Part shown: one piece after another, positions 1 to 64,000 of the stretch
How the letters are laid out: every line of letters begins with the position of its first letter
Position numbering within the stretch: position 1 is the stretch's first letter
Origin: Stentor roeselii
Taxonomy: Eukaryota > Ciliophora > Heterotrichea > Heterotrichida > Stentoridae
Length of the DNA: 64,000 nucleotides
NCBI GenBank assembly: GCA_006503475.1
Contig: RSEH01000186.1
Coordinates: forward strand, 30,517 to 94,516
Direction: 5' to 3'
Translations under genes and position numbers: made by a program
Notes under the pieces: model-generated
The model's database searches: none
What the model saw: only the letters and a program-made list of their open reading frames with translations
Told to the model about the DNA's origin: nothing

Positions 1-1476
1 TTCAAAGTGCAAGTTTAACTCTTTTTCACGGAAGAAGGTCAGAAGTGACTTGTCTTTTATTGATAAAAGGTTCAGAGGAAGAGGAATTGTGAGAAGATGA
101 TGGAGCTTTGAAGTGCAGGGCAAGATGAAGACTGAAGAAACTGGAAGGATTTGGCTTAGGTCGAATAAAAGAGATGATATTGAAGAGTCTTTTATTGAAG
201 ATTCTTGGCAAAGGATGAAATCGCTGAAATCGGAAAGACTTTCGGGAATGCGGGTTAAAATGAAGCCTTTTGTTAGGTAGAGAACTGGAGATGTTCCGCA
301 GTATTTCAACTTGAATAAACGGTAGAGAAGAGACTCGTGTGAAGTCAAGGATGAAAAAATCACGGAGTCTATTGATGAGGATGATAATGCTATTGCGGAT
401 TTTGGACTCTCGAGAATTTCTAGTTGGTATTTTAAGAGAAGCTCTTTTGCTTGCTTTAAGGCTGGGGGACTGTACTCTTTTCCTAGTGCTAGAGTTATTT
501 TTATTATGTCGTCTCCGCTGCTTACTTCGAATGAGGGGAGAACTGAGGAAGTGAGTGAGTTTTCAAGGTCGCTTAATGGCATCCAAGATCGATGCCAGTC
601 ACTTTTGACAACATTTTGCACTTCAATAAACCCCAACCTACACAAAAGACTAAGTGCATCCTTAACAACTTCAACCCTAAGTTTAGACCCTCTAAGCACA
701 GACTCAAAATCCGAGTAATCCTGACAAAGTCTCAAAACATCTCCAATCTGTTTTCCAAATCCAGTCTTATCAGGTACAAAATTTTTGATATCCCTGACCA
801 GTTCAAACCCGAATCCTTCAACTTCAATATCAAACTCAACAACAGTAGCTTTAAAAAGTCCTTCAAGGGCTTCTCGATCATATCTTCCAGCAGAGTTATG
901 AGCTTTACTCATGAAATCTTTACAAATTTCACTTAAACATTCAACTTCATTTTTGTTAGCAGTTTTTCTTGGTCTTTTGTGAAGCAGAGGAAAGACAAGC
1001 CACCATCCATCGACAGGAATAGTTAAAGGATATTTTGGAAGCATGCTTCGGATCGCTCTGGAGATTTTTGAAATCCAGCCTTTTTCTTTGCATTTTTGAA
1101 GAAGGTCTGTGTAAGAGTTCCTGTGAATACCTACGATTCGAAGAATGTCTGCCGCGGTAAATGTTGGAAGAGTGTCGTAAGTCTTTTGGACTCTTAACAA
1201 ATCGCATAACATGTCGATGTAGTAGTCGAAAGGACTTGTAAAGTTCAGGAATCGGCATAAGTGATAAGGAAATACTTCGAGTTTCAAACGTTGTGAACGG
1301 ATTAGGTCTCGGTAAAAACTCATTTTTTCGTAGTTTTTGAAACGGAGACGGTTTTCGCTGTGGTAGGTTATTTGGAGGTCTTGCCAGGTGTTTTCTGAGT
1401 TTGGTCCTGTCATTTTCGTTTTGATGTAACCGGGAAGTTCTTCGAATGAAATTAGATCTTCTAAGTATTCCTCCAT
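1..1476 (-). CDS. FAM91-family protein, N-terminal part (runs off left edge)
   Basis: The frame is open from the ATG at 1476 to the window edge (492 codons, no stop, no intron seen), so the 3' part of the gene lies outside. Residues about 95-115 read QKTYDTLPTFTAADILRIVGI followed by HRNSYTDLLQKC, which closely matches the conserved N-terminal block of FAM91A1 (YD-IP-F-AAD-LR--GI-RN-(Y/F)-DL---C). FAM91A1 forms a complex with WDR11 and acts in capture of endosome-derived vesicles at the trans-Golgi; that role is known for animals and inferred here. The start codon follows TTAATAA directly. Coding-strand composition flips at about 958 and 575 with no break in the reading frame. Family call fairly sure; function by analogy. 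Confidence 0.8.
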   Translation of the reverse strand, partial: MEEYLEDLISFEELPGYIKTKMTGPNSENTWQDLQITYHSENRLRFKNYEKMSFYRDLIRSQRLKLEVFPYHLCRFLNFTSPFDYYIDMLCDLLRVQKTYDTLPTFTAADILRIVGIHRNSYTDLLQKCKEKGWISKISRAIRSMLPKYPLTIPVDGWWLVFPLLHKRPRKTANKNEVECLSEICKDFMSKAHNSAGRYDREALEGLFKATVVEFDIEVEGFGFELVRDIKNFVPDKTGFGKQIGDVLRLCQDYSDFESVLRGSKLRVEVVKDALSLLCRLGFIEVQNVVKSDWHRSWMPLSDLENSLTSSVLPSFEVSSGDDIIKITLALGKEYSPPALKQAKELLLKYQLEILESPKSAIALSSSSIDSVIFSSLTSHESLLYRLFKLKYCGTSPVLYLTKGFILTRIPESLSDFSDFILCQESSIKDSSISSLLFDLSQILPVSSVFILPCTSKLHHLLTIPLPLNLLSIKDKSLLTFFREKELNLHFE

Positions 1477-1483
1477 TTATTAA

Positions 1484-2755
1484 CTAGCCGATCGCATTTG
1501 TCAAGTTCCAAGGCAAGATAACTATTTCACCATAAGGATTTGTTTCTTCAATAGGAAGAAGCAACTTATAATCATTCTTAAACTCTCCAAGTGTGCCTTT
1601 GAGCGCTTCTCTAGCAGTGACCGACAAATTTTTATTATCATCCAAATGTCCAAAAGAAGCCAGAGCAGTGACTCCAATTAACTCCATCAAAGCATCAGCT
1701 CCAACCGAAGTGAAAGGATTTCCAGCCATGTTGATTTCATACAAAGTTTGATTTTTGCTGATTTCAACATTTAAAAACCTGCAAAAGTCATCATGTAGGT
1801 CATTATGTCCAAGATTCAAGATAGTAAGACTGACATTAATCCTCAAAGCCTTAGCCAGATACCGTCCAATATTCGAACTAATCGCATTATAACTCAAGTC
1901 AAGCTTAGTCAAAACACGGTTATGTTTAAGAGTCTCTGAAATAACAACAATACTTCTACTATCCAAATAACACTGCGACAGGTTTAGACTAGTAAGATGT
2001 TCAAAGTTATTCAAAACACTTGCTGGTACTTTTGACTGAGGAATTCCGAAATTAATCACATTTTTCACCTGAAGAAGACCTTTCCAAAAAGTCTCAGCTC
2101 CAGTTCCTTGCACACTAATGGCTAAAAAGTGTAATCTAGTCAACCTCTTCAAACTCGTTAAAAGTCCATTGATCAATGCAGTCTCATTCGAAAACAAATT
2201 CCCAGACAAGCTAGATAAACCTTACTCCAAATACTCCAGATGAGTTCCTCCACTTTTAATAATATCTGTAAACTTCAGCAAAAATGCCTTTCCCAGTTCA
2301 TTATTACTCAAGTTAACTCTCGTGATTTTCGTGATTTTAAAGATTTCCTCCAATTCTGGAATAAAAGTGTCGTTTAAGTTATTTCTTGACAGGTCTAAAG
2401 TCGTGATTCGAGTCAATCGCTTAAGTCCTCCAATCAGTGAAATCATCGCGTCTTTTGTCACCCCGCGGCCTGAAAAGTGAGTCAAAGAAATTTTTTCGTA
2501 ATCAGGGTTCACAGGTGGCAGGACTTCTCCTTTTTTAGGCTCTGGAGCTGGGGCTGGAAGGTCCAAGTCTTTCACGGCCTGGGAAAAGGTCTTTGAATCG
2601 TCTTGGGCGAGAAGAAACTTGGGGGCGATCGAGGGTCCTGTGTATTTTTCCCATTTGTAAGGAACTTCTACGTCTTGACCAGTCGCTTTGATGAGCTGCT
2701 CACGAAGGAACTGAATCAGTTCATCTCGTTCTTGAATTTCAGTCTTGAGGTCCAT
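1484..2755 (-). CDS. Leucine-rich-repeat protein, two exons
   Basis: Exon 1 (2226..2755) and exon 2 (1484..2210) join across a 15-nt intron to give 418 aa. The splice restores a perfect repeat, LEYLDLSGN, where the unspliced frame stops at TAA. Residues 1-90 start with a short charged helix (MDLKTEIQERDELIQFLREQ) and a Pro/Lys-rich linker. From about residue 105 to the C-terminus there are ribonuclease-inhibitor-type repeats (TTLDLSRNNL, TRVNLSNNEL, LTSLNLSQC, TKLDLSYNAI, LTILNLGHNDL, YEINMAGNPF). Such proteins are protein-binding scaffolds; no specific partner can be named. Stop is TAG at 1484-1486, only 7 bases from the neighbouring FAM91-like start. Confidence 0.85.
2211..2225 (-). other. 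15-nt intron GTAAGGTTTATCTAG
   Basis: Phase 2 intron in the LRR gene. Removing it changes LE-stop into LDLSGN. It carries GT and AG ends and an A at position 10. Confidence 0.92.
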
Positions 2756-3159
2756 TATTAATGTTTAAGAATGGAGTGTTTGAGAATTTTATTGATTAAG
2801 GTTGATTTGAAGGATTGGACTTTCAGATTGTTTGAATGCTTTAAGTTCAGAAAGCTTGTAGTGGGATTTTTTTTATTCCTTGTGGAATTCCTTGAATGCA
2901 GGCTGTGAAGTTGATTGTTGCGGGAGAATATCTTGAGTTTAAAGCTTTTTTGAGGTATGGCTTGGATGTTTTGGTACTGGACTCAACAGAAGCGAGTTTC
3001 GGGAACACTTGGACATCAAAGGTCGTTTTATAGAAGATTTTTTAATCACTTGGTGCCTTTCTTGGTGTTTTATGGTTCAGGAATGAAGAGTAGTCATGAA
3101 AGTGATGGGAAAAGATTAGTTTGTTTGGAGGAATTATCAGGAAGTTTATTAAAGATATT
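2756..3159. other. Spacer without a supported gene
   Basis: About 400 bases, G+T-rich on the top strand. A short top-strand frame from an ATG at 2897 could be joined to 2957-3163 only by a 16-nt GT...AG segment that lacks the adenine at position 10 seen in the other introns, so I do not call it. The starts of the minus-strand LRR gene and the end of the small coiled-coil gene bound the gap. Confidence 0.5.
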
Positions 3160-3447: not shown

Positions 3448-3551
3448 GTCTGTTTGTTAAGGGATGATTAATAATTAATGATTTATCTTTTGATAAAATA
3501 TGGAATATTAAATCTTATCCTCTATTAATTAAACCATCCCACTAACTTTAC

Positions 3552-5534
3552 CTAAAAACAAGACCTCCAGCCTGATTTCTTCTTCGCTCCTTCAGTGATA
3601 AGTTTTTTCATCGAGGCCTTTTTTTCCTTTTCTCCAATTTTTTTCATAAAATCATCAAACTGTATATTAAAATCAGTGATATCAACTTCTTTAAAAACCT
3701 TCTTAATCGCTTTAATTTTCATACCATCTAAATTTTCTTCATCAATCTTAACTTCAGGTTTGCTACTTTTCAGTAACTTCGAGCAGATGGTTTGCTTGAG
3801 AGTATTAACTTCTAAAGCAGTTTTAATAATCTCATCAATCACAACCCAGACCTTTCTAGTGTTTCCAACATATGCAAATCCACTAACTTTAAACTTTTCT
3901 TTGACATGAAGTCTTAAAATTTCAAGCATTTGATTTGAAATGCTGATAATTTCTTCTGGATGTGAAAGTCTTCCGATTTCTTTCGTTAAAAACTCAAAAC
4001 TTGAATTTTCTATCACATCGAAGTATTTTTTTATTTCTTGGATTTCTTGATAAGTCCTTGAACTGAACTTCAGGATGTTTTTTTCAGAGATTTGTTTTTT
4101 TTTAATAGAAGCCATTTGTTCATATGTCTTGATATTTAGATCTTTTGATTTTGTGATTGATGTGATTTTTTTTTTTGCATTCTTGATGTCGATGTCGACT
4201 TTTTCGATTTCTTCTTTAAGTGATTTTTTTTCTAGTTCTTTATTCATGAGTTGAGCCTGCTGTTCTTTTCTAGCTTCAGCTTTAGTTAAAATTTCTCCAT
4301 CAATATCTCCTATTTGTTTTTCATTTGTTTCTCTTTTCGTGCTAACCGATTCTTTTTTGAACTTTTTCATTTCTCGTTCAATTTTTGTGATAGATTCCCA
4401 AAGTTCTGATAATTCACCGTCTTTTGTTTCGATTTTCTTCATAATATCTTTTTTTTTCTCATTTAATTTCTCGATATCATCTTCAATTACCTTGACCTGC
4501 TCATCAATATCCTCATTTAACTTCTCACAGTTTGACTTAAGTTTAATCAAGTCTTTAAGATCAGGGTCAGAGTCCCAAAGTTTTTTCATTTTTTTATTAT
4601 TGACATTAACATTCTCATCTTCCAGAAAGTCAACTTTTTTCGATAAAAGTAAAATTCGATTATGCAAGTCCATATTTTCAACTTTCATTGCTCGAATATT
4701 ACTTAAACAAGCTCCAGCGATTTCAACTTCTCTAATTTTTTCAGACTTAAAATAACTTTTTTTACTTTTTTTAGTTTCTTTGACCCAAGGACAAGAATGC
4801 AATTCAGTCGCTTTTTTTACATTATTTTCCTGTTCAATTCCCAAGCTAAAATTATAATTTTTTCCCCAAGCATATACAATTCCATTCATATGTACAGCAA
4901 AAGAGCTAAAAGGTCCAGCAGAGATTCTAACAATATTGTTAATTTCTTCAATTCTTTTCGGATTCATGTAGAAATTTTCTTCATCTTTCGATCTTTCTTT
5001 ACCCACTCGCGACCTTCGGCTGGCGAAAGGAAATTTCGAGTTTTCTTCTTTGACCTTTTCTTCAAAGTCTCGACTTAACTGGAAGTAGTCGTTGTTTCCC
5101 CAGGACCAGACGTACATCCCCATTTCCAAGGCCAGGACGTGGGAGTCTCCACAGGCCAATGCAACGATTTGAATGCCGACCAACTCTTTCACTGGCGACG
5201 GCTGGTTGAACATTGAAGGGTCTTCTGAACTGTCACTCATTCCCCAGCAGATCGTCTGGCCTTTCTTGTTTAGCATGAAGGACAAGTGCCGGGTTGACTC
5301 TATTGTCACTATTTTCAAATTCTCTTCAAGAGTCGGAATTGTTTGAACTAGTTCGAAGGTGTAAAGGTCAGTCACGTAGTTCGCTTTTTCGTTTTTCCAG
5401 TAAAAATCTCGCTCTTTTGGACCTTCAATTACGAAAAGATCCACCCAGTTCATACACTCATTGTAAAGTTTTTTACATTTTTCGCAGTCTTTTTTGTTTT
5501 TTGAAGGAACAAAATAGTGTCTTTCTTCTGTCAT
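3552..5534 (-). CDS. RCC1-repeat protein with long coiled coil
   Basis: 660 aa, no intron seen. Residues about 70-260 contain divergent RCC1 blades: LSFMLNKKGQTICWGMSD, ALACGDSHVLALEMGMYVWSWGNND and ISAGPFSSFAVHMNGIVYAWGKN, each with the GxxHxxAL and WG signatures. Residues about 290-480 form a highly charged coiled coil rich in Lys and Glu; the rest is helical. RCC1 blades usually make a propeller that binds partner proteins, sometimes GTPases. With only about three clear blades the propeller may be incomplete. RCC1-plus-coiled-coil proteins occur in many protists; the role here is unknown. A CxxC (CEKCKKLYNEC) sits near the N-terminus. Confidence 0.75.
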   Translation of the reverse strand: MTEERHYFVPSKNKKDCEKCKKLYNECMNWVDLFVIEGPKERDFYWKNEKANYVTDLYTFELVQTIPTLEENLKIVTIESTRHLSFMLNKKGQTICWGMSDSSEDPSMFNQPSPVKELVGIQIVALACGDSHVLALEMGMYVWSWGNNDYFQLSRDFEEKVKEENSKFPFASRRSRVGKERSKDEENFYMNPKRIEEINNIVRISAGPFSSFAVHMNGIVYAWGKNYNFSLGIEQENNVKKATELHSCPWVKETKKSKKSYFKSEKIREVEIAGACLSNIRAMKVENMDLHNRILLLSKKVDFLEDENVNVNNKKMKKLWDSDPDLKDLIKLKSNCEKLNEDIDEQVKVIEDDIEKLNEKKKDIMKKIETKDGELSELWESITKIEREMKKFKKESVSTKRETNEKQIGDIDGEILTKAEARKEQQAQLMNKELEKKSLKEEIEKVDIDIKNAKKKITSITKSKDLNIKTYEQMASIKKKQISEKNILKFSSRTYQEIQEIKKYFDVIENSSFEFLTKEIGRLSHPEEIISISNQMLEILRLHVKEKFKVSGFAYVGNTRKVWVVIDEIIKTALEVNTLKQTICSKLLKSSKPEVKIDEENLDGMKIKAIKKVFKEVDITDFNIQFDDFMKKIGEKEKKASMKKLITEGAKKKSGWRSCF

Positions 5535-7223: not shown

Positions 7224-7886
7224 TTAATCTCCTCTAAGTTTTTTTCTAAGAATTTCAAGTCTTTCGAAGCTTTTACCCTGCAAATCTTGTTGAAAACTTT
7301 CAAAACTTTCATTTTTTTCACATTCCTGAAGTTCTAGTCTTCTAACTTTAAAGAAATAAGGAGGTTTCGCGACAGCTCGATCCTGATTAAGTCTTACAGT
7401 CGCCATTTCATTTTTGAATAGAACTATCGCTGAATTCGCTTCAATTTTCGTTTGAACAACTTCTCCGTATTTCTGAAAGGCCTTGACGATTATTGTTTCA
7501 GTAAAAACTTTATTTTTTTCCCATTCGGCCTTGATTCCACTTTTCTGCACTTTTATTATTTCTTCTCGCTCTGGACGAGTGAATCTCTTTTGAGGAATTT
7601 TTACAATTTTAGCATTTTCTCTTTCGATCAGGTCGTTTCTGAGCTTTTTTATGTTTTCTGAAAAGGCCTGGTCTTTTTTTAGCTTTTCTGATAATGATGC
7701 CCGGGTTTCTGAATTTTTAAGGGCGTGATATGCTTCGCTGATTTTTTGAAATGTTTCTGAAGAGGACTGGGATTTATCTGGATGATGTTTAAGAGCTAGT
7801 TTTCTAGATATGTTTTACTTGTAGGCTTTTTTTACTTCAAGTTCAGTGGCGTCTAGGGATATTTCAAGGACTTGGAAGTAGTTCAT
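7224..7886 (-). CDS. DNAJC17-like J-domain/RRM protein
   Basis: Exons 7819..7886 and 7224..7803 give 215 aa. The J domain occupies residues 1-65 with KAYKKLALKHHPDKS after splicing, so the HPD triad that stimulates HSP70 ATPase is intact. A helical linker follows, then a C-terminal RRM-like fold (about 130-190: FTETIIVKAFQKYGEVVQTKIEANSAIVLFKNEMAT). J domain plus RRM is the architecture of DNAJC17/Cwf23, which associates with the spliceosome. The protein is shorter than human DNAJC17 (about 300 aa). In a genome with 15-nt introns a spliceosomal chaperone is notable, but its role is inferred. Confidence 0.8.
7804..7818 (-). other. 15-nt intron GTAAAACATATCTAG
   Basis: Phase 2 intron inside the J domain. 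Removal restores AYKKLALKHHPDK. A at position 10. Confidence 0.95.
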
Positions 7887-7998
7887 GATAAAAATATAAA
7901 AAATTAATTTTCTATTTTTGGAGGTCTACATAATGACCCACTGAAATTTCAAAGAAATTTTTCCATCACAAGATCTCAGCAGAACATCAATAAATTTA

Positions 7999-8820: not shown

Positions 8821-8925
8821 TAGGTTTTTAATCAAGGTTTTAATTATAGATTTTTGTTGAGTTTTATGGAGGGCTTTGGGATTATTGATGATTTATGATA
8901 GGATTGATTATTTTATTAGTTGTGT

Positions 8926-9510
8926 TTAATTCTGATTACAGGCCAGATTGATATTACAAAATTTAACAGGAGACCAGCACAATCTCGAATAATCACATTT
9001 CCCCTTAACAACCTTTCCTCGAAGTCTACTTTTATTCCTTCCATTCTCCAGATCCAAAGGCCTATTACTTCCATCACTTTTCAACCTTAAAACCCAGTTA
9101 ATCCTCCTAATCCTTTTAAACTTCCTCAAAACCGGAGTCTCCGATCTTTTCTTGACATTTTTTGTATGAATTTTCGGTTCCCTCAAGTAAACCAAAGGAA
9201 AATCATCTCCAGAAAGTGGACTCAAAACACTTTTATTATCAAACTCAATCCTTTGATTAACCGGAGAAGGACTTTTGCAATTCCTTCCATTTTGAGTGAT
9301 TTTCCTAACAAGTATCAAATTATCAAAAGTAGAATCCTCATTTCTCGAAGGCGTTAAATTTCTATGAAAGATTTCTCGATTAGTTCCAGTAGTCGGTGTT
9401 CCAAACTCACTATTAACGCCAGTCCTCGTTGCAATTCCAACAGTCCTAGTAGCGATTCCAATAGTCCTAGGTCTACTTTTGCAAGTTGTAGTGAAAACCG
9501 ATTTATCCAT
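8926..9510 (-). CDS. Basic low-complexity protein, unknown function
   Basis: 194 aa, ATG at 9510 preceded by an AT-rich TGCAAT. Rich in Arg, Lys, Ser, Thr and Asn. A short tandem repeat, IGIATRTVGIATRTG, lies near residues 17-31. Ser-Pro and Thr-Pro motifs (LTPSRN, KSPSPV, LSPLSG, SETPVL, WSPVKF) suggest kinase target sites or a disordered DNA/cytoskeleton-binding protein. No family recognised. It lies in an A+C-rich phase on the top strand, which could itself keep frames open, so reality is likely but not certain. Confidence 0.55.
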   Translation of the reverse strand: MDKSVFTTTCKSRPRTIGIATRTVGIATRTGVNSEFGTPTTGTNREIFHRNLTPSRNEDSTFDNLILVRKITQNGRNCKSPSPVNQRIEFDNKSVLSPLSGDDFPLVYLREPKIHTKNVKKRSETPVLRKFKRIRRINWVLRLKSDGSNRPLDLENGRNKSRLRGKVVKGKCDYSRLCWSPVKFCNINLACNQN

Positions 9511-9902: not shown

Positions 9903-10587
9903 TATATTGTGAGTTTTGATGAAGGCGTATTTATATCATGAAATTAGTATGGAGGACGTTTTCTATTGGCTAATTTTTATATCTTCACAGATATGGATAG
10001 ACAAGGGGATTAGTTTTTTGCGAAGATTTTTGATTTTTTGTTTAGGAGATTAATGATTTTGGGTTTTTTGGCTTGGCGTGTTGACAGGGTTGGCTTTTGG
10101 AGTTTTGGATTTAACGAGGATTGATTTTTTTTGGGTTGGACTTTCTGGATTAGGCATTTTTAGAAAGGGTTTGGAGAGATTTGATTTTTTTTGGATTTGA
10201 GGATTAGAGAAGAGTTGTTTGGTTTGTTTTATAGTTTTTATTTTAGATTGATAGTGAAGAGAATGACTTTTGTACTGGGGATATTAAGTTATTGATTTAA
10301 TAGTGATTTTGGTTAATTTTAGAATTATGAAGATTATTAGCAGATCTTAAAGTACTCATTGTTTGATTAAATGTAGAAATAGACTTACGGAATTTTTTTA
10401 TGGTTTTAAGGAATAATCTCTCTCCACTGAACTTAAATCAATCCAAAATAAATAACTAAATCAATTTCCTAATCTCAATCATAAAAAATTATCACCTCAA
10501 ATACCCTAAACCATTCTCCATTCACACTCCACTCCACCCAACTTTCATCCAATCCAAACTCTCATCAAAAATCCCAAATCTCCATAA
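9903..10587. other. Spacer with extreme strand-composition switch, no supported gene
   Basis: About 685 bases between divergent H2B and LRR genes. From about 9990 to 10410 the top strand is strongly G+T-rich (47 of 60 bases in 10021-10080 by hand count). From about 10420 it becomes A+C-rich (17 of 60 G+T in 10441-10500). The only ORF is a 35-residue Lys/Pro-rich frame on the minus strand at 10050..10157, explainable by composition alone. Confidence 0.6.
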
Positions 10588-11638
10588 ATGGGAATGTTAT
10601 TCTCAAAAGACCAATCAAAACCACTAAAAGTCTTCCAAGTCTCATCAAGTTCCTCCCACCTAGACCTAGATTCAATCCAGCCAGTTCTGAAATCGCTTGA
10701 AGACCATACTCAAAGCATAACAAAAGTAAGCATAAAAGGTTTCAGCTACTCAGAAGAAGCCTTATCACTTTTATCCAACACGATCCAAGAATGCCAAAAA
10801 GTAGAAACCGCTGACTTCAGTGAAATTTCACCATCGATGTCTCACTTAGAGACTTTAAACTCGACACTTTTATGCCTTCACAACCTGTACGAGGTGGACC
10901 TTTCAAAGAACTTTTTAACTGAATCCAGTATTGACGTGTTCAGCTTCTTGTTTCATTCGGACTGCCTGAAAGTTCTCCGTCTTGACGACAACCTTCTGGG
11001 TGTTGAAGGCGCCATGAAGCTGGCTGAAGCGCTTCGCAACTCGGAACTCAAGTTGCAAGTCTTTAGTGCTGAAAGAAACGCTCTTGAAGACCAGGGCGTT
11101 TTAGAACTCTCTGAAGCTATCTTCTCGATGGGAAGTCTTAGACAGGTTAGTCTCTCTGGAAATCGACTGGGAAAAGAAGGGATTATTTTACTTTGTAGGA
11201 GCTTGACTGGAAATTGTGAATTGCAGGTTGTTGAAATCGCTGATAGCTATTGTAATGAAGATATTGCTTTTGTTTCTATTAGACAATTGTTGGAAAAAAC
11301 GAACTTTTTGAGCAGGGTTAACTTTAATGATTGCTTTTTGGGAAATGCTGGGAGTAGGGAAGTTCTTACTGCTTTGTTGAACTCGAATCAGAACTTGGCT
11401 GAACTTTTGTTGGCTTATAATGAGATTGATGATGATGATGTTGCTGATTTGTTGTGTGAAGTTATTAAATGCAAACGGTTACTTGAGGTACATTGTAAGT
11501 AGGCGTATTGACCTAACCGGAAACGATTTTTCTCTTGAAGCCCGACTAAAACTAAGACAAGCATCTGAGTTCTTCATAAAAGAAGAAGAATCTTTGGTGA
11601 TCTCTGACCTCTCTGAGTCCAGTTCTGAAGATTACTAA
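10588..11638 (+). CDS. Leucine-rich-repeat protein, two exons with an odd splice
   Basis: Exon 1 (10588..11487) encodes 300 codons and exon 2 (about 11504..11638) 44 plus stop, total about 344 aa. RI-type repeats cover about residues 80-320 (YEVDLSKNFL, KVLRLDDNLLG, VFSAERNALED, RQVSLSGNRLG, LLLAYNEID). The downstream frame resumes with DLTGNDFS, the next expected repeat, giving LLERIDLTGN. The 15-mer GTACATTGTAAGTAG looks like a standard intron but leaves the frame off by one G; a 16-nt excision restores it. Starts with MGML, so N-terminal lipid modification is possible. Protein-binding scaffold; partner unknown. Confidence 0.8.
11488..11503 (+). other. Intron of anomalous length (16 nt, or 15 nt plus a 1-base indel)
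   Basis: GTACATTGTAAGTAG has the canonical form with A at position 10, but excision of 15 nt gives an immediate stop. Excising 16 nt (ending AGG) restores the LRR. Confidence 0.6.
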
Positions 11639-36988: not shown

Positions 36989-37051
36989 CAACTTCTAAAG
37001 TTAATAAAAAAATTGGAAATTTTCACGATCTCTTAAAATAACTTAAACTAT

Positions 37052-42688: not shown

Positions 42689-42715
42689 TGAGAAATAAGT
42701 TAATAGTCAATAAAA
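42689..42715. promoter_or_regulatory. 27-bp divergent start-to-start interval
   Basis: Separates the ATG codons of CDC50 (42688, minus) and the secreted Cys-rich gene (42716, plus); sequence is AT-rich and ends CAATAAAA before the plus-strand ATG. Confidence 0.5.
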
Positions 42716-43774: not shown

Positions 43775-43908
43775 TATTTATGAGAGGGTTAGATATTTTC
43801 TTGGATATTTGAATAGAGAAAACACTCTTCATCTCAAGTAACTGTATTAAATCTACCATTCACCCATCATAACTTGCTACAAGCAATCAAATTCAAACTT
43901 CAATATAA

Positions 43909-52900: not shown

Positions 52901-55900
52901 CGCTTTTTAACAAGGAACATGTCAGGAACAACGTCTCTGAAGCCGCAGCTGGTCTTTGCTCCTGGGTCTTGGCACTTGAAAAGTATTATCATGTCAACCA
53001 AGACATTCTTCCAAAGCGCAAAAGGCAACAGGCAGCTGAAGAAGACTACAACACCTTGATGAAAGCCTTGGAACTCAAAGAAAGCGATTTAAGAAAAGTT
53101 CAAAATGAAGTGGCAAGGCTTCAAAATGACTTAAATTTAACTGTCAGTGAAAAGGAAAGACTTGAAAGGGAAGTTGAAAATTGCCGCAAACAACTGGAAA
53201 GGGCTCAGAAATTAATTGAAAGCATGGGAGGTGAAAAAATCGCTTGGACTGAAAAAGCTCAAAAGTTAGCTGAGGTGTTAATTACTATCACTGGAGATAT
53301 TCTTATTGCTGCTGGAACTATCGCTTATTTGGGACCTTTTACTTCTGGGTATCGTTCGCAGATCATTGAGAAGTGGATCGCTTCGGTTAAAACTAAGGCT
53401 ATACCTAGTAGTGAAATGTTTTCTTTGCAGCTTTGTGTTGGAAACCCTGTTACTATTAGGTCTTGGAATATTGATGGACTTCCTAGAGATGCTTTTTCTA
53501 TTGATAATGCAGTCATTATGTCCAAGTCAAGTAGATGGCCCTTGCTTATTGACCCTGAGTCTCAGGCAAATAAATGGATAAGAAAGATGGAGAATAAGGA
53601 AGATCAACTCTTGATCATTAAACTTGCTGATAAAGACTTTTTAAAGAAACTGGAAAGGAAAATCACTTATGGACAACCTGTCTTGCTCGAAAATGTTGGA
53701 GAGGACTTGGACCCAAGTCTTGAACCTCTTTTGTTGAAACAAGTTGTTAAAAATGTACTCAAACTCGGGGATTCTGAAATTGAATATAGCCGGGACTTCA
53801 AGTTTTACATCACGACTAGACTTCGAAATCCTCATTATTTGCCTGAACTCTCCACAAAAGTAGCTCTAATAAACTTCATGATAACCCAAGAAGGTCTAGC
53901 CGACCAGCTTCTAGTAACAGTAGTAGCAGAAGAGCAGCCAGAGCTCGCAAAAAAGCGAGAACAGTTGATCCTTCAATTCGCAGAAAACCAAAAGAAGCTA
54001 AAAAACATCCAAGAAAAGATCCTATTAATAATGAGTACAAGTTCCGGAAACATCCTAGACGACGACGAGGCAATAAACGTCTTATCCCAGTCAAAAATCG
54101 TATCAAACCAAATCGAGCTCGAACAAGAAAGTGCAAAAATCACAGAATCCAAGATAGAAGAAACTCGAATCCAATACAGTGGATTCACCGACTGTATCGC
54201 GCGTTTATTCTTCTGCATCACTGACTTATCAAACATCGACCCAATGTACCAATACTCTTTAGACCTCTTCAACAACATGTACCTAAAAGCCATTCGCGAC
54301 ACTGAAAAATCAGAAGAACTTGAAATCCGTCTTAATGTCTTAGAAAAGACTTTCACAAAACTTCTTTATACCAACATCTCCAGATCACTCTTTGAAAAAG
54401 ACCGCCTCTTGTTTTCTTTCAACCTTTGCTTGAAATTCATGGACTTTCGAAAGGAACTTGATGCTGAAGAGCTTCGGTTTTTGATAACTGGAGGAGCGGC
54501 TTTGGATGAAAAGTATCCAAATGTCCCTGATACCACCTGGCTTACTGAAAAGTCTTGGAATGAGATTTGTAGATTGAGTAAATTACCGACTTTTCAAGGA
54601 TTTTCTAGTGATTTTAAAGAAAGAATTGATGAATGGAAAATGATTTTTGATGCAGGTAGTCCTGCACAATGTAAATTTCCTGGATATTGGAATTCAAAAG
54701 TATCGGAATTTCAGAAACTTCTTATTTTGAGGTGTCTTAGATTGGACTGTCTCATCGGAGCTATTACTGACTTTGTTGCTTCGAGGATGGGGAAGGAGTT
54801 TGTGACTAGCAGTCCTTTGAAATTGAAAGAAATTTATCTGGATTCGAATCGATGCTCGCCACTTATTTTTATACTTTCTCCTGGGTCTGACCCTTTCAGA
54901 GCTTTGAAAAAACTGGCTGAGTCTACTAATAAAGTTCTTCATACTCAGTCTCTTGGACAGGGACAAGGAGCTGCTGCTGAGATGACTATTTCTTCTGCTC
55001 TTGAAAATGGAAGTTGGGTGTTGTTGATGAATTGTCATTTAGCTGAAAGCTGGATGGGTACTTTGGAACAGATTGTTCAGAATATTCAACCGGAAAGTAA
55101 ATCTGCTGGGAAAGAGTTTAGACTTTGGCTTACTTCTTATCCGTCGACTAAGTTTCCGGTCACTTTGCTGCAGAATGGAATTAAAATGACCAATGAGCCT
55201 CCAAAAGGACTTAAGTCCAATTTGGCCGGATCTTTTACCAAGGATTTTATCACAGATCCGAAAGTTTTTAATGGGTGCAAAAGAGAAAAGGAATGGAAAA
55301 AACTCTTATATGGACTTTGTTTTTTTAATGCTGTGATACAAGAACGTAGACTTTATGGATCTCTTGGCTGGAACATTCCTTATGAGTTCTCAGAAAGTGA
55401 CTTAAGGATATCTGTTCAGCAACTTAGAGATTATTTGGACTTGTCGCCTAAAAAGATTCCTTTTGATGCACTTAAGTACTTGGCTGGTGAATGCAATTTC
55501 GGAGGACGAGTAACAGACGACAAAGACCGTCGTTTAATTCTAACCTTACTAGAAGACTACTACACAGAAGACCTTTTCAAAGAAACCTACCGCTTCGCTA
55601 ACCTAGAAGACTTCATTTCTCCACCAACAGGTGACCACAACAGTTTCATGTCCCACATCGAGTCTCTTCCAAGTTTAATCCCAACCGAAATCTACGGATT
55701 TCACCCAAACGCCGAAATAACCAAAAACCTAAACGAGGCAGTTTCCCTATTCAACTCGATGTTACTGACGCAAAGTAGCCAAACCTCTTCAAAATCTCAT
55801 TCATCGCCAGAGCAAATCGCAATGTTAATCGCCGAGAACATCTTAAACGAGCCTCCCGAAGTCCTCGACGAGGACTTCGCAAACAAAAATTTTCCTCCAA

Positions 55901-56634
55901 GATACGCTGAAAGTATGAACACAGTCCTTACCCAAGAAGTGATTCGTTTCAACAACTTGACCCGCTGCATTAGAAACACTTTAGCTGATCTTATCAAAGC
56001 CGTTGGAGGACAAATTTCAATGTCCGGCCAAATCGAGGCTACTTTAAAGACTCTCTTCGACGGCAGGGTGCCTAAGGTCTGGAAAGACGTGAGTTATCCT
56101 TCATTGAAGCCTCTTGGTGGGTATATGTCGGATTTAAAGCAAAGAATTGAATTTTTTAAGTCCTGGCTTTTGAAGGGTCAACCAGAAGTGTTTGAAATTT
56201 CAAGATTTTTCTTTACTCAGAGTTTTTTGACTGGGTCGTTGCAGAATTATTCTAGGAAAATGAAGGTTCCTATTGATTTGATTAAGTTTAACTTTGAAGT
56301 TACTGAATCAAGTAAGAGACCTGAGGATGGAGTTATTGTTAAAGGGTTGTTTTTAGAAGGAGCTAGGTGGGATTATGAGAATGGGTCACTTGCTGAGAGT
56401 TTTCCTAAAGTGCTTTTTAGTAATTGTCCTGCGGTTTGGTTGAAACCTGCGCAGGAGGTCGAAGAGTTCCCGCATTATAATTGCCCGGTTTATAAAACTA
56501 GTGAGAGGAGGGGAGAACTTAGTACTACTGGACATTCGACTAACTTTGTGATGTTTATCAGACTTAATAGCAATCTACCTCAACAGCATTGGGTTAAAAG
56601 AGGAGTTGCCTTGTTGACCCAACTTAATGATTAA
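43909..56634 (+). CDS. Axonemal dynein heavy chain with N-terminal CCDC81-type HU module
   Basis: 4241 aa in one uninterrupted 12.7-kb frame. Residues about 30-175 contain two HU-like CCDC81 domains (SLTSWLKNQIQQGRSVNLPSFGLFG; ITSIISQIGETLSNIRAEVD then LGTLGRLKS). Then the dynein tail, linker and AAA ring: P1 GPAGTGKTET (residue 1554), P2 GLPFSGKS (1835), P3 GKTGTGKT (2190), P4 GVGGSGRQS (2567), an EF-hand-like loop DFDKNGKVETMD near 2478, the stalk coiled coils and microtubule-binding domain (about 2800-3120), and the C-terminal domain ending HWVKRGVALLTQL. Length and features fit a single-headed inner-arm type (DNAH1/3/6/7/12 group); the exact class is unsure. Drives microtubule sliding in cilia. 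Confidence 0.96.
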   Translation: MDDRETFVSIEKLFSLCAKKSVESNQSLITSLLSQVTLSQCWESLTSWLKNQIQQGRSVNLPSFGLFGTISGQDSKSIGFIPHEVFLTNYSLSFRSTFQSIETEPNVKVNYGSLAKLTNLDKPLCTLAITSIISQIGETLSNIRAEVDLGTLGRLKSTNREVTFMPYLKEKLGMKTGKSSVKRLMEMGKSYDRLPPIEKIRIDTNKIERVEKEKFSKTTSRVKLLEHKELSREMLAAGLNPQARVNNYSSLASDPAALLATRFKKPKLADTKFPPVLDVYSRTLASPMTFNKQYIPVSARIASFYSPFAKRLVIDKESRSIKFIPEELIITLPANLNPLIPMLPTTEGSLKIWATGTDSESLRKDYNEKRYKHYIENEISTEMIAPMNQLWITEILKQVPAEWMGVQAYVVEEMLEQMTNEINKDYYVASRKSILDYVLKDFEQKKRLGIEYNPCPPVEYGEEIFEGINIDEWQNSVMEAKIRIADNLCTCFPASVSLMTLWTRFDEVLLVSIPSKYDIMIIEEFCERQENILINVHSNHINTWLVDSEKAIIEEVTRSVMDSEKASMFYEAACTMMSIQLRQLVTDSIQAYLDFFLTFDLPKSHLPDPSTMIQNIPSTWPNAFLKLRMISKDTVIDFSDSSEKIIEELVKVIYKIIEKFTNTPRPEKTLTKNSGKMTLWNVERDDEIVIKAEEKIRKIAKRSLKISWKALDLYSKYSSLLTDSRKIDLFLHTNPHLHTRGEFTEMISRYESLEKEIRSTCPLRIRLNMIEVDCTEINKSLTKECDEIIKKLNNHIMSRSQERAQKLSRDFDEMTNKLKTRADTEQKLVDSENYKEKCRIEEIPRLFREYEDIIAWFKLLYQTPFQVSEENLAPLKNSNTWVKEILTTLFNAEQRLQSEKDDLSSKLIETRKTFWNELSDIEMEIARHRNDSEETLYRDYSGQIANLKLKLEKDRRQMEDIHDKEIKLGWSPTEFTKLEEARLTIEPYEELWTLVGNFQDRNQAWISTNVKDLDPDEIEREVKQMQGKAKSLVIRLKEKAPRLSDVASFTSLKIDRFMKNIPTMKIVSTKGLTDRHFEKITKILELPPGSFKVDSTTTFKMIQNLDFSSHLEEIQEISLGASREYSNFKQLEKMEKDWENVKFELKEKPEQQTFILTGAAIELIETQLEDQILNVQSMKGSPFAAVYIDRIMRWDNWLQRAQEIIHVWLEVQKYWISLEPVFGSADIQKALSQAYGFFKLAEDEWKRIMSLTFKDPTVRVVTEFKDLYEKLSACLEKFVSVQKSINNFLESKRIFFPRFFFLSNEELLSILKETRDPTQVQPHLKKCFEGIKSLRFDGEKRISAMISPEGEVVELEIIDPSVYEGAVEKWLLKVEEEMIASTRKMIGNSIKTYSESRRSNWVAEHIGQAVLCCSMYQWTINTESRIEKNTLDSYLTVYNNLLTEIVNLVRGEIDHLLRCTLKALIVLDVHCRDVVEELVFRGISNKDDFTWQCQMRYYNDADDKVTVRIINAVLDYTYEYLGNSERLVITPLTDRCYRTLCGAISLLYGGAPEGPAGTGKTETVKDLAKALARMCVVFNCSDGLDYKAMGKFFRGLASTGGWCCLDEFNRIDPEVLSVVAQQLLQIQNAVRENLQEFNFEGNVTRLLKTCNAFITMNPGYAGRSELPDNLKALFRTVAMMVPDYSLIAENVLYSYGFHNARILAQKIVATYKLCSEQLSSQKHYDYGMRAVKSVLTAAGALKRRYPEENEVVLMLRSINDVNLAKFLSHDLPLFEGIISDLFPGVELPEPDYNHLKISLSRQCLALNLQEKDYFFVKIIQLYEMIQVRHGLMIVGLPFSGKSSALKVLAKALSDLSSRNLMGESEVITFLLNPKSISLKQLYGDYDPVGNDWKDGVLSTGFKNFARNETKQRKWLQFDGPVDALWIENMNTVLDDNKKLCLPSGEIVAMSNNMNLIFEVMDLAVASPATVSRCGMIYMEPAKMGWEPIYQSWKTFGMPKTFLENEEIEVNLLVDWLVEPTLRQVETKMKMIAPMMRQNLLVSLLRFFSTTLECLSDSATFEKIEEKDRIKMIDCLFVFSLVWSVGACIIDRRNFNIWLRRILNGDVPEVKNKGKKILPAIPENGNHYDYVFLADQKIWKHWAETGFSNINDQISSKLQPNEVIVPTTDTVRYTYLLENMVRGNIPHVFCGKTGTGKTVYVKDVINNKLETKAESKEGDVKVKQFINVMIGFSAQTGANQVQDTIDGKLDIKRGKGIFGPRPDEICVIFIDDMNMPESEEYGAQPPIEILRQMLDQGGWYDRKDNSFKKLIDFRFISAMGTPGGGRTFLTPRFMRHLSLISLTDFEDDTLLRIFSSILHSVFVNNKFSENVVKLENKIVQASRDIYKTAMEKLLPTPLKSHYTFNLRDFSKVILGICMADPVVLTEGDQVVRLWVHEIFRVFGDRLVDDTDQLWLLGHVRDITKRIFGMNFDTVFNHLDFDKNGKVETMDEIRRLTFGYLLNPLGSTKKYIEMTNFTKMQKSCESSLELFNLSSKKPMDLVLFGFAIEHLARISRIINQSGGHALLVGVGGSGRQSLTRLAVYMSEFSLFEIELKKGYSKSDWNTDLQTLLKKAGGSGEPTIFLLTDSHIKDKSFLEDINTLLNTGEVPNLFAHEEKVEVIEMVRPAAKSESNINDNSLTQLFGFFVSRCKKNLHIVLCFSPIGEAFRTRLRMFPSLVNCCTIDWFTAWPANALVSVASTYFKDLDIDNSIKQACVEMCQEFHSDTINWSAKMLSELKRNYYVTPTSYLELIKAYKNLLTEKRKEISTEKVKFEVGYQKLIHTEGSVGAMQMKLTKLQPDLELAKKKAEEQLVIVEANTKDAEVMEESVKEQELIARQAADEAEAIKRECDQGLAKCMPLLEEANQALKVIQKDDISAIKKMSNPPSLIKDIMEAVCILFDLKPGKKQNPLTMKMEPQWWECSLRVLSQLDFLNNLMDFHKDDITENQIKQLQRFVNDPLFNKEHVRNNVSEAAAGLCSWVLALEKYYHVNQDILPKRKRQQAAEEDYNTLMKALELKESDLRKVQNEVARLQNDLNLTVSEKERLEREVENCRKQLERAQKLIESMGGEKIAWTEKAQKLAEVLITITGDILIAAGTIAYLGPFTSGYRSQIIEKWIASVKTKAIPSSEMFSLQLCVGNPVTIRSWNIDGLPRDAFSIDNAVIMSKSSRWPLLIDPESQANKWIRKMENKEDQLLIIKLADKDFLKKLERKITYGQPVLLENVGEDLDPSLEPLLLKQVVKNVLKLGDSEIEYSRDFKFYITTRLRNPHYLPELSTKVALINFMITQEGLADQLLVTVVAEEQPELAKKREQLILQFAENQKKLKNIQEKILLIMSTSSGNILDDDEAINVLSQSKIVSNQIELEQESAKITESKIEETRIQYSGFTDCIARLFFCITDLSNIDPMYQYSLDLFNNMYLKAIRDTEKSEELEIRLNVLEKTFTKLLYTNISRSLFEKDRLLFSFNLCLKFMDFRKELDAEELRFLITGGAALDEKYPNVPDTTWLTEKSWNEICRLSKLPTFQGFSSDFKERIDEWKMIFDAGSPAQCKFPGYWNSKVSEFQKLLILRCLRLDCLIGAITDFVASRMGKEFVTSSPLKLKEIYLDSNRCSPLIFILSPGSDPFRALKKLAESTNKVLHTQSLGQGQGAAAEMTISSALENGSWVLLMNCHLAESWMGTLEQIVQNIQPESKSAGKEFRLWLTSYPSTKFPVTLLQNGIKMTNEPPKGLKSNLAGSFTKDFITDPKVFNGCKREKEWKKLLYGLCFFNAVIQERRLYGSLGWNIPYEFSESDLRISVQQLRDYLDLSPKKIPFDALKYLAGECNFGGRVTDDKDRRLILTLLEDYYTEDLFKETYRFANLEDFISPPTGDHNSFMSHIESLPSLIPTEIYGFHPNAEITKNLNEAVSLFNSMLLTQSSQTSSKSHSSPEQIAMLIAENILNEPPEVLDEDFANKNFPPRYAESMNTVLTQEVIRFNNLTRCIRNTLADLIKAVGGQISMSGQIEATLKTLFDGRVPKVWKDVSYPSLKPLGGYMSDLKQRIEFFKSWLLKGQPEVFEISRFFFTQSFLTGSLQNYSRKMKVPIDLIKFNFEVTESSKRPEDGVIVKGLFLEGARWDYENGSLAESFPKVLFSNCPAVWLKPAQEVEEFPHYNCPVYKTSERRGELSTTGHSTNFVMFIRLNSNLPQQHWVKRGVALLTQLND

Positions 56635-58589: not shown

Positions 58590-61500
58590 TTAATTGTTTA
58601 TCCCTGAAGAAATAAAACTATCTTGTCTGCCATGTCTTCTCGCTCTTTCCTTGTCAATTTCTCTCTTAACAAGTAAATTTCTCCCACTTGATTTTCCTTT
58701 GAAAAGATTATAAAACAATTCATAAAACCACAAACAGAACCCGAACATGACAATAGTACCAGGAAAGTCAGTCATAAACTTAAGCATATAATCCATAAAC
58801 TCAACTTGTGGAGACTTGTAAGTAGTAATTCCAACTTCAATTCTCATCAAGTTAATATTAATCCCTAGTCCAGAATATATCCCGATTTCTCTAGGATCAA
58901 CTTCAGTTCCTTTTGCGGGTTGATTTGAGATACTGAGGACATACCCAAGTCGTGAAAACTCTCCAAAAGTATCAATTTCTTTATAATAAGAAGGTAAAAA
59001 CGAGAAGTAAAAATTTGTATCTTCACTTCCTCTAAAGACTAAATCCTTCGTAGCTTCAACATGCTGAGTCACGATGCTATTAGTCCCTGGTATCGACGAG
59101 TGTGTCTTTAACCTGACGTTGATATCAGAGGTATAAGCCAAGGAGTCATTAAAGTAAAACCGTATAAAGTCTCCAGTTTCGATGATATCAGTAGTTTTCA
59201 TATGATAGTAAAACTCACATAAAGGACTTTTGGACTCAATGTGTCTTGATTCAACTTTCACGTTATCACTGTGAGTAAGCTTCATATGTGTAAAAGAGCA
59301 GTCGCCTCGATATGATGAAAACATCATGTAAACCTTTAAAGAGTTATCGTCAAAGTCTTCCTTATCAATCAAAGTGTCAATAGGGACCAGTACTATCTGC
59401 TCTTGTACGTTGGTCATTATATAGTTGTAAAGAGAATCAATAGAAATAGCGATGAGAATAAGTGATGTTATAAAACTGAAATAACCTCCTGGAACAGAAG
59501 GCTCGATCACGAGGGACTTGGGGACTAGTTCTCCATTTTCATCACAGACCTTTTCGACGTGGTTGTTCTTGTAGATGTCGTAGTAGCTCATGAAGATCCT
59601 GACGCGCCAGTCAAGAAAGAAGATGAGAGTGAAAAGAAAAATTATGCCGAAGACTATCACCCAGAGAATCGATTTGAACATTATTGTATTTGGAGGCTCG
59701 TAAAGCTCAGGTTGGTCTTTGTGATGTCTGTAGTGGTGCACTTCGTCCATGTCGCTTTCGCTCAGCCAGTTCTTGCTATTCGCTCCGACATAGCACGTCT
59801 TGTCTTCTGGACAAGGGAGGCATTCTGAACTTTTTTCTTTAGAGTATGTGCCTTCAGGGCAAGGTATACACTGATAAATGCTAGTCGCTCCAATAACAGT
59901 ATTAATATACCCAGCAGGACATGACACACAAATTAAAGAACTATAGTTGCTATAAGTACCATATGGGCAAAACTCACAAGTATCACCAATTTTTTGCATT
60001 CCAAAGCCACAAGAAAGCAGAAGATTAGGAAGTTTCAGATCACTCAATCCAATTTGAACAACAAAATCACTGCTTGGAAAGTTAACTGAAAGTCCATTAA
60101 TATTATACCCCGAATAAATATAAATGGTATTGTTGAAAAATGAAAATGCCGACAAATAAGCAGAATCATTCATATCTGCAATATGATAAACATCTAAAGT
60201 ATTTCTGTTAATCATCCAGATATCATTAAAGAACTCTTGTTTATATCTTTCTCCACCGACAATAAGTACGTAATTTTTATCAATCACATCATAGGCATTA
60301 TGGCATCTGCATGGAAATTTGCTGTTAACAAAACTGATACTTTTCGGAGTCATATCTTTCGACTCTGAAAGATTATATCGAGTGATGTAGCAATGAGGAA
60401 TGTCGATAAGTGAAGAAGACCCGAAGTAAACAGTAACAATTTTATTTCCTTTAATTTCTTCAATACCACAGCCATGTCCAAAGAATCCAGTATCGATTCC
60501 TTTTTTATAATCGTAAAGTTTAACAAAGGTTTCAGTCGAGATATCGAATTCCCAGAGACTGTTAGTGATATGGCTGTCTTCTGCCCCACCTACTGAGTAG
60601 ATCTTCGGAAATTGAATGGCAATGCAGTTGGAGTAAACAGGAGGCGGGCGGATTGTTGACTTCGGGACAATCAACGTCCAAGTCATCGTTTCAGTCTCAA
60701 GTAAAAAGTAATCTTTCTGCAAGACTCCATTGCTGATCCCCCCTGCAATAACCATGTACTTCCCTTCACTTGCAGAGGCATGGAAACACCTTGGAGAAGG
60801 AATACTTCCATAAGACACCACTTCTGACCATGTTAAAGTATCCAAGTCCAAAGTGTATAAATCACCTAAATAAACTCCTTTGTCCTTCCCTCCGAACAAG
60901 TAAAATTTCCCTGCAACATAAACCATTGAAGCGCCAACTCTTCGACTTGGAGAATTGCTTTTTGATAAGAAATTAACTGAGCAGTTCACATTTGTCTCAG
61001 AGTTGTCCAGGTCCAGACGGAATATCGAGTTAACCAACAAGTCATTTGAGAAGCCACCGTTGATATAGACAGAGCCTTCAGAATAAGAGTACCCGAAGCC
61101 ATTTCGTGCAAGTTCATTTCCAAGTTCTTCACATCCAGAAATCGTTAAAGTTTTCCAACCGACTTCGACATTGCTCAAGTCCAGCCTTGCGACTGACTTC
61201 AAGTCTTGAGGAAAGCCTTTTTCATCCAGGTTGAATCCGAAAAAGCTGTAAAAAAAACCTTCATGAACACAGCTTCCACCACGACTGGTGTTGTATAAAG
61301 GGACTCTGAGTTCTAAAGCTTGCCAAGTGGAAAGTGCTAGATTAGGTTGAATGGTATATTTACAGATCTCTGACATAAAAGTAATGTTTTCACGGTTCAC
61401 GTTCTTCCCGGCAAATAAATATAAAGACCCGTCGTAGAACTCCATTTGTCCTCCAGAAAGTCCGAGTTCGAAGCAAGTTGAGTAGTTGGACTGAGTGATC

Positions 61501-63241: not shown

Positions 63242-63755
63242 AATCTAATTTAAATTTAGTTTATAAGTAGATAATGTTAAAATTTGAAGAATCATAGATA
63301 AAGTGTATTAATGAAAAAGTTCTATAATTCTTAAGCAATTTAATTTTTTTCAGTATTTTGGAAGATTGTTACTAGAACACAAAGGTTCAATTCCTTTAAT
63401 AATAAGCACAGAAATATTTCTAGACTTCTATCAGTAGCTCTATCATATAATTTTAATTTTCATCAAGTATTGTTCAATTAGTCTATATAAATAGGTATCG
63501 TATTAGAAAAATTTTTAAAGATAAATTATATAAATTAAGGATATGTATAACAATATTCTAAATTCTTTCCTCCTTATTATTCTTTATCCTCATTAGTTTT
63601 AAATTTTTTTCTTGTTTAAGTACTAAGACAACTTTGATCTATCCTATAATCTCAATCTGATTACATCAGATTTGAGCATCATTAATTCTCTGAATTTTGA
63701 CTGCTTTTGATATAAAAATTTATATTCTTATTTAACTACTAAATAATTCTATAAA
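63242..63755. other. AT-rich spacer, no gene seen
   Basis: About 510 bases of AT-rich sequence. A tRNA-like T-arm (AAAGG TTCAATT CCTTT at 63381-63397) is present but no matching acceptor or anticodon stem is found, so no tRNA is called. Confidence 0.6.
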
Positions 63756-63995
63756 CTAATCTTCGTGAATACAAGCTTCATAAAGGTCTCTTAGTGTCTC
63801 ACAATTAAATCTTTCATATGTTGAATCTTGAGGATCTAAGAAAGTATTAAGATTTGTATTGTTTTTTTCATTTTTTACTCCTTTCCTGACGATTGGCTCT
63901 TCATAAAAATCTTCATTAAAGTTATCTCCTTTTTTGAATAAATACTTCAGAAATTTCACCTTTTCCAATAAAAACTCACCGATTGATTTGGCCAT
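63756..63995 (-). CDS. Unknown small AT-rich ORF
   Basis: 79 aa, MAKSIGEFLLEKVKFLKYLFKKGDNF to LYEACIHED, TAG stop. Acidic and basic clusters, Asn-rich centre. No family recognised. The ATG is 5 bases from the window edge, so an upstream exon or a further upstream start cannot be checked. Same AT-rich tail as the previous ORF. Confidence 0.35.
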   Translation of the reverse strand: MAKSIGEFLLEKVKFLKYLFKKGDNFNEDFYEEPIVRKGVKNEKNNTNLNTFLDPQDSTYERFNCETLRDLYEACIHED

Positions 63996-64000
63996 GTAAG

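Follow-up and report, generated by a model that had tools for sequence, protein, structure and literature searches.

The window analyzed here, a stretch of 64,000 nucleotides (positions 30517-94516 of contig C101), belongs to a genome of 44.39 Mb in 522 contigs. Its gene content is eukaryotic (protein kinase and RCC1 repeats are present), and one giant open reading frame (ORF) runs uninterrupted for 4241 amino acids (aa). Units of 15 nt of the form GTAA..TAG were in excess (51, compared to typically ~24, range 9 to 41, at other lengths), and tubulin frames were open under the standard code, with 21 of 23 matches lacking an internal stop; both features are consistent with a heterotrich ciliate such as Stentor. 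Across genes and gaps, the keto skew of the top strand (G+T versus A+C) repeatedly undergoes an abrupt fall followed by a gradual recovery. We refer to an abrupt fall as a drop or reset and to its converse as a rise. The pattern had been described from the letters of the window as a sawtooth (the sequence-only reading), and this description was followed up computationally.

The window was analyzed together with 230 kb of further DNA (50 kb apiece from contigs C1, C5, C20, and C60 and the initial 30 kb of C101), which gave 294 kb in six stretches of five contigs, or 0.7% of the genome. Low-constraint sites comprised synonymous third positions and intergenic DNA, with codon-type means removed; gene models were plain ORFs of at least 150 aa, and steps were considered strong at t>4.5 unless another t is given. 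As controls, synonymous sites were shuffled three times within each gene and codon type, and 100 kb of Escherichia coli DNA was analyzed in parallel. The 294 kb contained 99 strong drops and 44 strong rises (30 versus 2 at t>6). Coding sites alone yielded 70 drops and 38 rises (22 versus 2 at t>6), whereas the shuffles yielded 2/0, 1/0, and 2/1 drops/rises and E. coli neither a strong drop nor a strong rise. Neither condition that would have refuted the sawtooth (a skew autocorrelation within that of shuffled synonymous codons, or drops and rises of equal mean steepness) is borne out by these counts. The skewness of keto-skew increments (half-width of 200 bp) was -0.68±0.20 in the window and negative in all six stretches (-0.24 to -0.68); the corresponding values for purine skew (-0.06 to +0.13) and GC content (-0.23 to +0.06) were mostly within ~1 standard error of 0 across the six stretches. 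At a half-width of 150 bp, increment skewness over the 294 kb was -0.48±0.07 for synonymous plus intergenic sites and -0.38±0.08 for coding synonymous sites only, and the asymmetry weakened at 400 bp (-0.07±0.05 and 0.00±0.07, respectively). Weak steps in raw skew were symmetric (289 drops versus 300 rises at 0.25; 216 versus 212 at 0.30), while larger steps favored drops (104 versus 60 at 0.40; 40 versus 9 at 0.50). The ascending sawtooth outperformed the descending form in each of the 6 stretches and with every one of 12 parameter pairs (best likelihood gains, 2721 and 2230, respectively). Since the descending fit was far from nil and sharp rises exceeded those of the shuffles, part of the skew field is not tooth-shaped. 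The core observation of abrupt drops with slow recovery is nevertheless real and strong: the slow rise and sharp drop that had been described are borne out by the negative skewness in every stretch and by the excess of strong drops. All 10 G+T counts per 60 bp given in the sequence-only reading were exact. Four of the five pairs that it quoted span or abut strong drops that were detected blind (at 45656, 49135, 55490, and 35617), but the pair at 23.8-23.9 kb stays below t>4.5.

About 200 sites were fitted in the 294 kb, about one per 1.2-1.4 kb, and the median spacing was 1,165 bp at t>3 (207 intervals) and 1,388 bp at t>3.5 (160 intervals). A gradual drift that fills each interval, as first described, was not recovered. 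A linear ramp predicts a remaining amplitude ratio of 0.29 at 30-45% of an interval, whereas intervals of 1.8-6 kb gave 0.05 (95% range, -0.11 to 0.19; n=46; t>3), i.e., a skew of ~0. The repeat at t>3.5 gave -0.04 (-0.17 to 0.11; 49 intervals), and the small set of 15 intervals longer than 2.6 kb (t>3) gave 0.03 (-0.29 to 0.43); these ratios may be blurred by weak resets that escaped detection within long intervals. In the profiles, which cover drops away from the stretch ends, the amplitude stayed level over ~300 bp and was close to zero past 600 bp (intervals of 1.8-2.6 kb) or past 500 bp (longer intervals). The best site-kernel fits were smooth kernels reaching 0.4-0.9 kb. Each reset has a local footprint of ~0.5-0.6 kb per side whose reach is independent of spacing, and the sawtooth look arises because neighboring footprints overlap. 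A first segmentation fit had ranked a linear tooth best of four shapes (2721, compared to 2711 for a 600-bp curvature); this replicon-like ramp was rejected, as that fit had been chosen using the very data it described, and length-binned profiles gave a fixed reach. Because the reach is fixed, the literal analogy to replication N-domains with an origin-to-origin ramp is unsupported. A step of <10 bp was also rejected, as an artifact of same-site breakpoint placement. When half of the sites served to place each of 71 drops and the remaining half to read its profile, the flip broadened to ~±50 bp (nearest simulated half-width, 50 bp), and it was somewhat broader for intergenic (23) than for in-ORF (48) drops. 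Due to this spread, nucleotide-precise junctions such as nicks or joins of macronuclear-destined sequences (MDS), which had been considered as causes, fit less well.

At two-fold degenerate codons, the T share at pyrimidine endings and the G share at purine endings covaried (r 0.23-0.30; p 5e-20 with 150-bp bins). In 300-bp bins, T at NNY correlated with G at NNR both for + genes (+0.32) and for - genes (+0.25), in agreement with the proposed independence from the coding strand. A G+C shift would move the two shares in opposite directions; their positive covariation therefore indicates that C-to-T and A-to-G changes accompany each other on one and the same strand. The strand-pooled r(Y,R) was -0.16 (-0.51 shuffled, -0.26 in E. 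coli), but it retains the strand means, and the within-strand values were used. Along the tooth, the purine fraction of intergenic DNA stayed level (0.53 to 0.51), C decreased from 0.22 to 0.06, and G increased from 0.08 to 0.24, the amplitudes of these changes and of the following ones being inflated by assignment of the tooth phase from the same data. The purine fraction of four-fold sites fell from 0.52 to 0.37 (+ genes) and from 0.61 to 0.49 (- genes); transversions therefore take some part. Relative to DNA with no drop of t>3.5 within 800 bp, log odds were -0.60±0.02 for C/T and -0.69±0.02 for A/G, with neighbor effects of -0.28 to -0.87 and -0.23 to -1.29, respectively. C and A were depleted on the left side of resets (the would-be 3'-overhang side), with the mirror image across them. 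The GC skew jumped at strong resets from about +0.33 to -0.31, a step of ~0.6 that is somewhat inflated by same-data placement. Codon positions 1 and 2 also followed the field weakly (slope of 0.15 each), which qualifies the earlier statement that synonymous positions absorb most of it. A directional mutational process at closely spaced sites, one of the causes proposed earlier, accords with these data: the signal is synonymous plus intergenic, mainly transitional, and strand-symmetric, and it was found in all six stretches.

The sequence-only reading held that the pattern ignores gene boundaries; the placement of resets shows otherwise. Over 152 ORF boundaries (gaps of -30 to 1500 bp, ORFs of at least 450 bp, and sufficient synonymous sites), the mean synonymous keto step was -0.253±0.029, compared to 0.000 at 1,582 overlapping in-ORF controls. 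Gaps >200 bp showed steps of -0.33 to -0.41 for ++, --, +-, and -+ pairs (11 to 19 pairs each), although a uniform sense-strand offset would stay hidden here, since codon-type means were removed per strand beforehand. Convergent gaps dropped about as strongly as divergent ones. Tandem ORFs <60 bp apart displayed steps of -0.02±0.08 and -0.12±0.08; such pairs probably represent, in many cases, a single gene interrupted by an intron or a change of frame. Midpoints of gaps of 120-1000 bp held a drop (t>2) in 35 of 67 cases and a rise (t<-2) in 1 of 67, and the corresponding shares at 2,350 in-ORF comparison points were 18% and 26%. Both counts indicate that resets prefer intergenic gaps in any gene orientation. 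Most of the 99 strong drops are nonetheless located inside ORFs (70; coding baseline, 0.78), with 29 outside (22% expected), and "in-ORF" resets at ORF edges (e.g., 42727, 36958, and 1468) may be intergenic. Strong rises were nearly absent from intergenic DNA, with 1 of 44 outside ORFs of at least 150 aa. G+C fell to 0.26 at intergenic resets, which are A+T-rich, and was flat at in-ORF resets (0.37-0.40 throughout). Aligned on ORF starts, the sense skew was ~-0.13 over the first 200 bp (135 ORFs); aligned on stops, it was +0.14 to +0.19 over the last 300 bp (138 ORFs). Counting of 6-mers at 98 refined drops, without a formal motif test, revealed no convincing motif. The top-scoring 6-mer was ATTAAT (18, compared to 6.2 expected; both strands, so that the palindrome was counted twice), and the other listed 6-mers had small counts.

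A paralog of the 4241-aa ORF is located at positions 6001-16000 of contig C321 (L036). Comparison of positions 34000-53900 of the window with the genome gave 41 matching stretches, most of them within the giant ORF, and the best series spans 7 kb of C321. These matches suggest that the ORF belongs to a large family of giant proteins, perhaps dynein heavy chains. The synonymous skew of the two copies, compared along 3,321 aligned codons (63% identical residues), showed no correlation (r -0.10, p 0.49). At t>3, the paralog had 5 drops and 7 rises (largest drop, 6.4; largest rise, 4.5); the window copy had 10 drops over the aligned stretch, and one pair of drops lay within ~50 bp of each other. 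In this one pair at least, in-gene resets have turned over and do not track protein domains.

The strong resets of the window are listed in Table 1. The strongest one terminates a 440-bp intergenic stretch (9961-10400) in which the top strand is very C-poor and the keto skew reaches up to +0.54 per 100 bp. The kinase ORF at 6035-7198 had 23 genomic matches of >500 bases (around 5770-6880) with 64-75% DNA identity, i.e., it is part of an expanded kinase family. Sampled ORFs of 300 aa or more ended in TAA (46), TAG (38), or TGA (8), and 3 ran off an end; TGA is a rare stop across the 294 kb.

Table 1. Positions of strong resets and related features in the window (t in parentheses)
Feature	Interval	Strand	Context
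Reset near 608, refined 607 (t 6.6)	558..658		In ORF
Reset near 1468 (t 5.7)	1418..1518		In ORF 1-1476 (-), 8 bp from edge
Reset near 3506 (t 5.6)	3456..3556		Intergenic
Reset near 7925 (t 4.7)	7875..7975		Intergenic
Reset near 8927, refined 8950 (t 6.3)	8877..8977		Between ORFs
Strongest reset, 10407-10419 (t 9.0)	10357..10469		Between ORFs 8929-9537 (-) and 10588-11499 (+)
Example of a whole tooth	10420..11460		A/C-ending codons grade into G/T-ending along ORF 10588-11502
Reset near 11510 (t 4.8)	11460..11560		Classed intergenic
Reset near 25144 (t 5.4)	25094..25194		Intergenic
Reset near 26888 (t 4.5)	26838..26938		In ORF
Reset near 28063 (t 7.5)	28013..28113		Divergent intergenic
Reset near 29553 (t 5.9)	29503..29603		In 1861-aa ORF
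Reset near 30832 (t 5.4)	30782..30882		In 1861-aa ORF
Reset near 34132 (t 5.4)	34082..34182		In ORF
Reset near 35617, refined 35623 (t 6.2)	35567..35667		In ORF; quoted earlier
Reset near 36958 (t 5.5)	36908..37008		27 bp before end of ORF 34667-36985
Reset near 39076 (t 4.6)	39026..39126		In ORF
Reset near 42727 (t 6.1)	42677..42777		Divergent ORF border
Reset near 43811, refined 43818 (t 7.5)	43761..43861		Intergenic, ahead of 12.7-kb ORF
4241-aa (12.7-kb) ORF, uninterrupted	43909..56634	+	Basis of paralog test
Reset near 44589 (t 5.2)	44539..44639		In 12.7-kb ORF
Reset near 45656 (t 6.0)	45606..45706		In 12.7-kb ORF; quoted earlier
Reset near 48552, refined 48561 (t 6.0)	48502..48602		In 12.7-kb ORF
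Reset near 49135 (t 5.3)	49085..49185		In 12.7-kb ORF; quoted earlier
Reset near 51087 (t 5.2)	51037..51137		In 12.7-kb ORF
Reset near 55490 (t 5.8)	55440..55540		In 12.7-kb ORF; quoted earlier
Reset near 59867 (t 4.7)	59817..59917		In ORF

Our favored hypothesis is that resets mark places in accessible DNA where the germline repeatedly suffers double-strand breaks that are resected 5' to 3', a reading to which we assign a probability of roughly 40%. According to this model, accessible sites at fixed positions would be numerous in the genome (roughly one every 1.2-1.4 kb), with a clear one in about half of the tested gaps and others in ORFs. Double-strand breaks would recur at these sites in the heritable nucleus, and each would be resected 5' to 3' over roughly 0.3-0.6 kb. 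The surviving 3' strand (the top strand left of the break, the bottom strand right of it) would be single-stranded and later filled in, and C>T and A>G would build up on it at similar strength. Over evolutionary time, this would leave the top strand rich in G+T to the left of the site and rich in A+C to its right. What we infer is a break as the initiating event, its meiotic nature, which a Spo11-type domain and two Rad51-family genes would suit, and repair synthesis or damage to single-stranded DNA as the mutator. Since the mutations have to be heritable, the breaks would occur in the micronucleus, or else in the macronucleus of a long-asexual line. The drops in all four gene orientations and the scarcity of rises in gaps are as expected if accessible DNA, not promoters alone, were targeted. 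Candidate break and repair machinery is represented in the genome by matches at the domain or family level to TP6A_N (Spo11/Topo VI A; 1), the Rad51 family (2), and Y-family polymerases (4). MutS (4 matches) and uracil-glycosylase (1 match) are also represented, so that outright loss of these repair families is not the cause. For human meiotic breaks, PMC7615360 describes C>N and A>N mutagenesis on the 3'-overhang strand, mirrored across the break in the flanking 2 kb, and a central ±100 bp without asymmetry. The sign, the mirror image, and the core without asymmetry resemble our findings; unlike the human signal, which is known from rare variants at hotspots (PMC7615360), the one here would be a lasting composition at sites every ~1.2-1.4 kb. 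It is a slightly more tentative proposal that the base composition of the whole genome would constitute a fossil map of germline break sites with ~50-bp resolution, in which the ~0.5-kb footprint would record resection, in-gene sites would turn over, and gaps would be standing hotspots.

Several observations weigh against the break model. Sharp rises, which it does not predict, exceeded chance (38 in coding sites, compared to 0-1 in the shuffles), and the paralog had more rises than drops at t>3, though its largest drop exceeds its largest rise. Recombination hotspots are often marked by GC-biased conversion, and the absence of a G+C increase at in-ORF resets gives no sign of it. Plain cytosine deamination would be expected to prevail in single-stranded DNA, yet C>T and A>G had about the same strength. 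Yeast break hotspots favor promoters, whereas convergent gaps here were about as strong as divergent ones. The density of resets and their large amplitude would need very stable hotspots, TP6A_N by itself would not prove a meiotic Spo11, and the model is drawn from the genome sequence of one strain.

The main competing explanation, which we consider unlikely but clearly the strongest of the alternatives, is that each reset is a replication origin in accessible DNA with an A+C-rich leading strand, the asymmetry being confined to the first ~0.5 kb by a distinct polymerase or unwinding step. The intergenic placement regardless of gene orientation and the preference of the first segmentation fit for a linear tooth (2721 versus 2711) favor origins, and so does the sign, as leading strands of Saccharomyces cerevisiae, Kluyveromyces lactis, and Candida albicans are reported as enriched in A and C (PMC3459929). 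The yeast replication skews share the abrupt, strand-symmetric flip with an A+C-rich strand leading away from the site (PMC3459929). However, the GC-skew jump at yeast origins is 9% and returns to average over ~20 kb, compared to the somewhat inflated ~0.6 within ~0.6 kb observed here (PMC3459929). Moreover, an efficient site would be needed every ~1.2-1.4 kb, and the fork-direction form fails in long intervals, with the reservation that undetected weak sites could blur the ramp test. A short-range origin effect is possible.

Transcription or R-loop asymmetry is a less probable source. Short bidirectional transcripts could start at resets, with strand-biased damage or repair close to the start making the non-template strand A+C-rich. 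The enrichment of resets in gaps and the sense skew at ORF starts (~-0.13) and ends (+0.14 to +0.19) would fit, but the sign is opposite to that of the usual non-template strand, which is G+T-rich. Furthermore, convergent gaps, which should be free of promoters of the flanking genes, dropped about as much as divergent ones, the step had the same sign in ++, --, +-, and -+ pairs, and in-ORF resets have moved between the two paralogs. More doubtful again is programmed germline rearrangement, according to which resets would be excision junctions of internal eliminated sequences (IES) and MDS with directionally mutating germline flanks. The organism looks like a heterotrich ciliate, and the footprints are centered on sites. 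However, a nucleotide-sharp flip would be expected instead of the ~±50-bp spread, no motif stands out at resets, and excision breaks arise in the somatic nucleus and would not be inherited. Selection on codons, messenger RNA, or protein structure could produce genes or domains with A+C-rich starts and G+T-rich ends, and the average sense strand of ORFs has this form; we regard it as improbable, because intergenic DNA shares the field, resets recur within single ORFs, and the paralog with 63% identical amino acids has an uncorrelated phase. Chance or ordinary composition noise, for which the likelihood gain of a descending sawtooth and the symmetry of weak steps might speak, can practically be dismissed given 70 strong drops versus 0-2 in the shuffles and E. 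coli and the better ascending fit in every stretch.

Known compositional skews either extend over replicons (tens to hundreds of kb) or are confined to individual special loci. Human replication N-domains resemble the present pattern in the abrupt skew jump and in a shape that is invariant under reverse complement, but their skew S jumps upward at origins (inverted sign), and they follow a linear ramp at a far longer scale. Similarly large and short-range is the GC-skew jump at C. albicans centromeres, an abrupt 74% that returns to average in ~3 kb and that the author judged unlikely to be linked to replication (PMC3459929). That jump is a centromere feature, whereas the sites described here would number tens of thousands genome-wide by extrapolation if the sample is typical. 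Ciliate nanochromosome subtelomeres also carry a strand-symmetric bias in macronuclear DNA; in Nyctotherus, the first ~130 nt are reported to carry a purine skew, and in Oxytricha ~50 bp are biased (PMC2633312, PMC3558436). Their bias adjoins telomeres, in contrast to a keto skew over ~0.5 kb at contig-internal sites with no irreversibility in purine skew. Titles and abstract openings among the matches listed contained no account of a sawtooth in keto skew at kilobase scale, be it in Stentor or in any other ciliate, which is weak evidence of absence because they cover part of the matches. Strand skew is of a known kind; a site-centered keto skew this large at every kilobase or so was not found described in this limited search.

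If the interpretation is true, break or initiation sites and the reach of mutagenic repair or synthesis would be mappable from sequence alone, even though the germline biology of this organism is difficult to access. Distance to the nearest site shapes codon usage, third-position G and T content (G3/T3), and, through codon positions 1 and 2, some amino acid choice. Phylogenetic and codon-usage work in this genome is thus affected by site distance.

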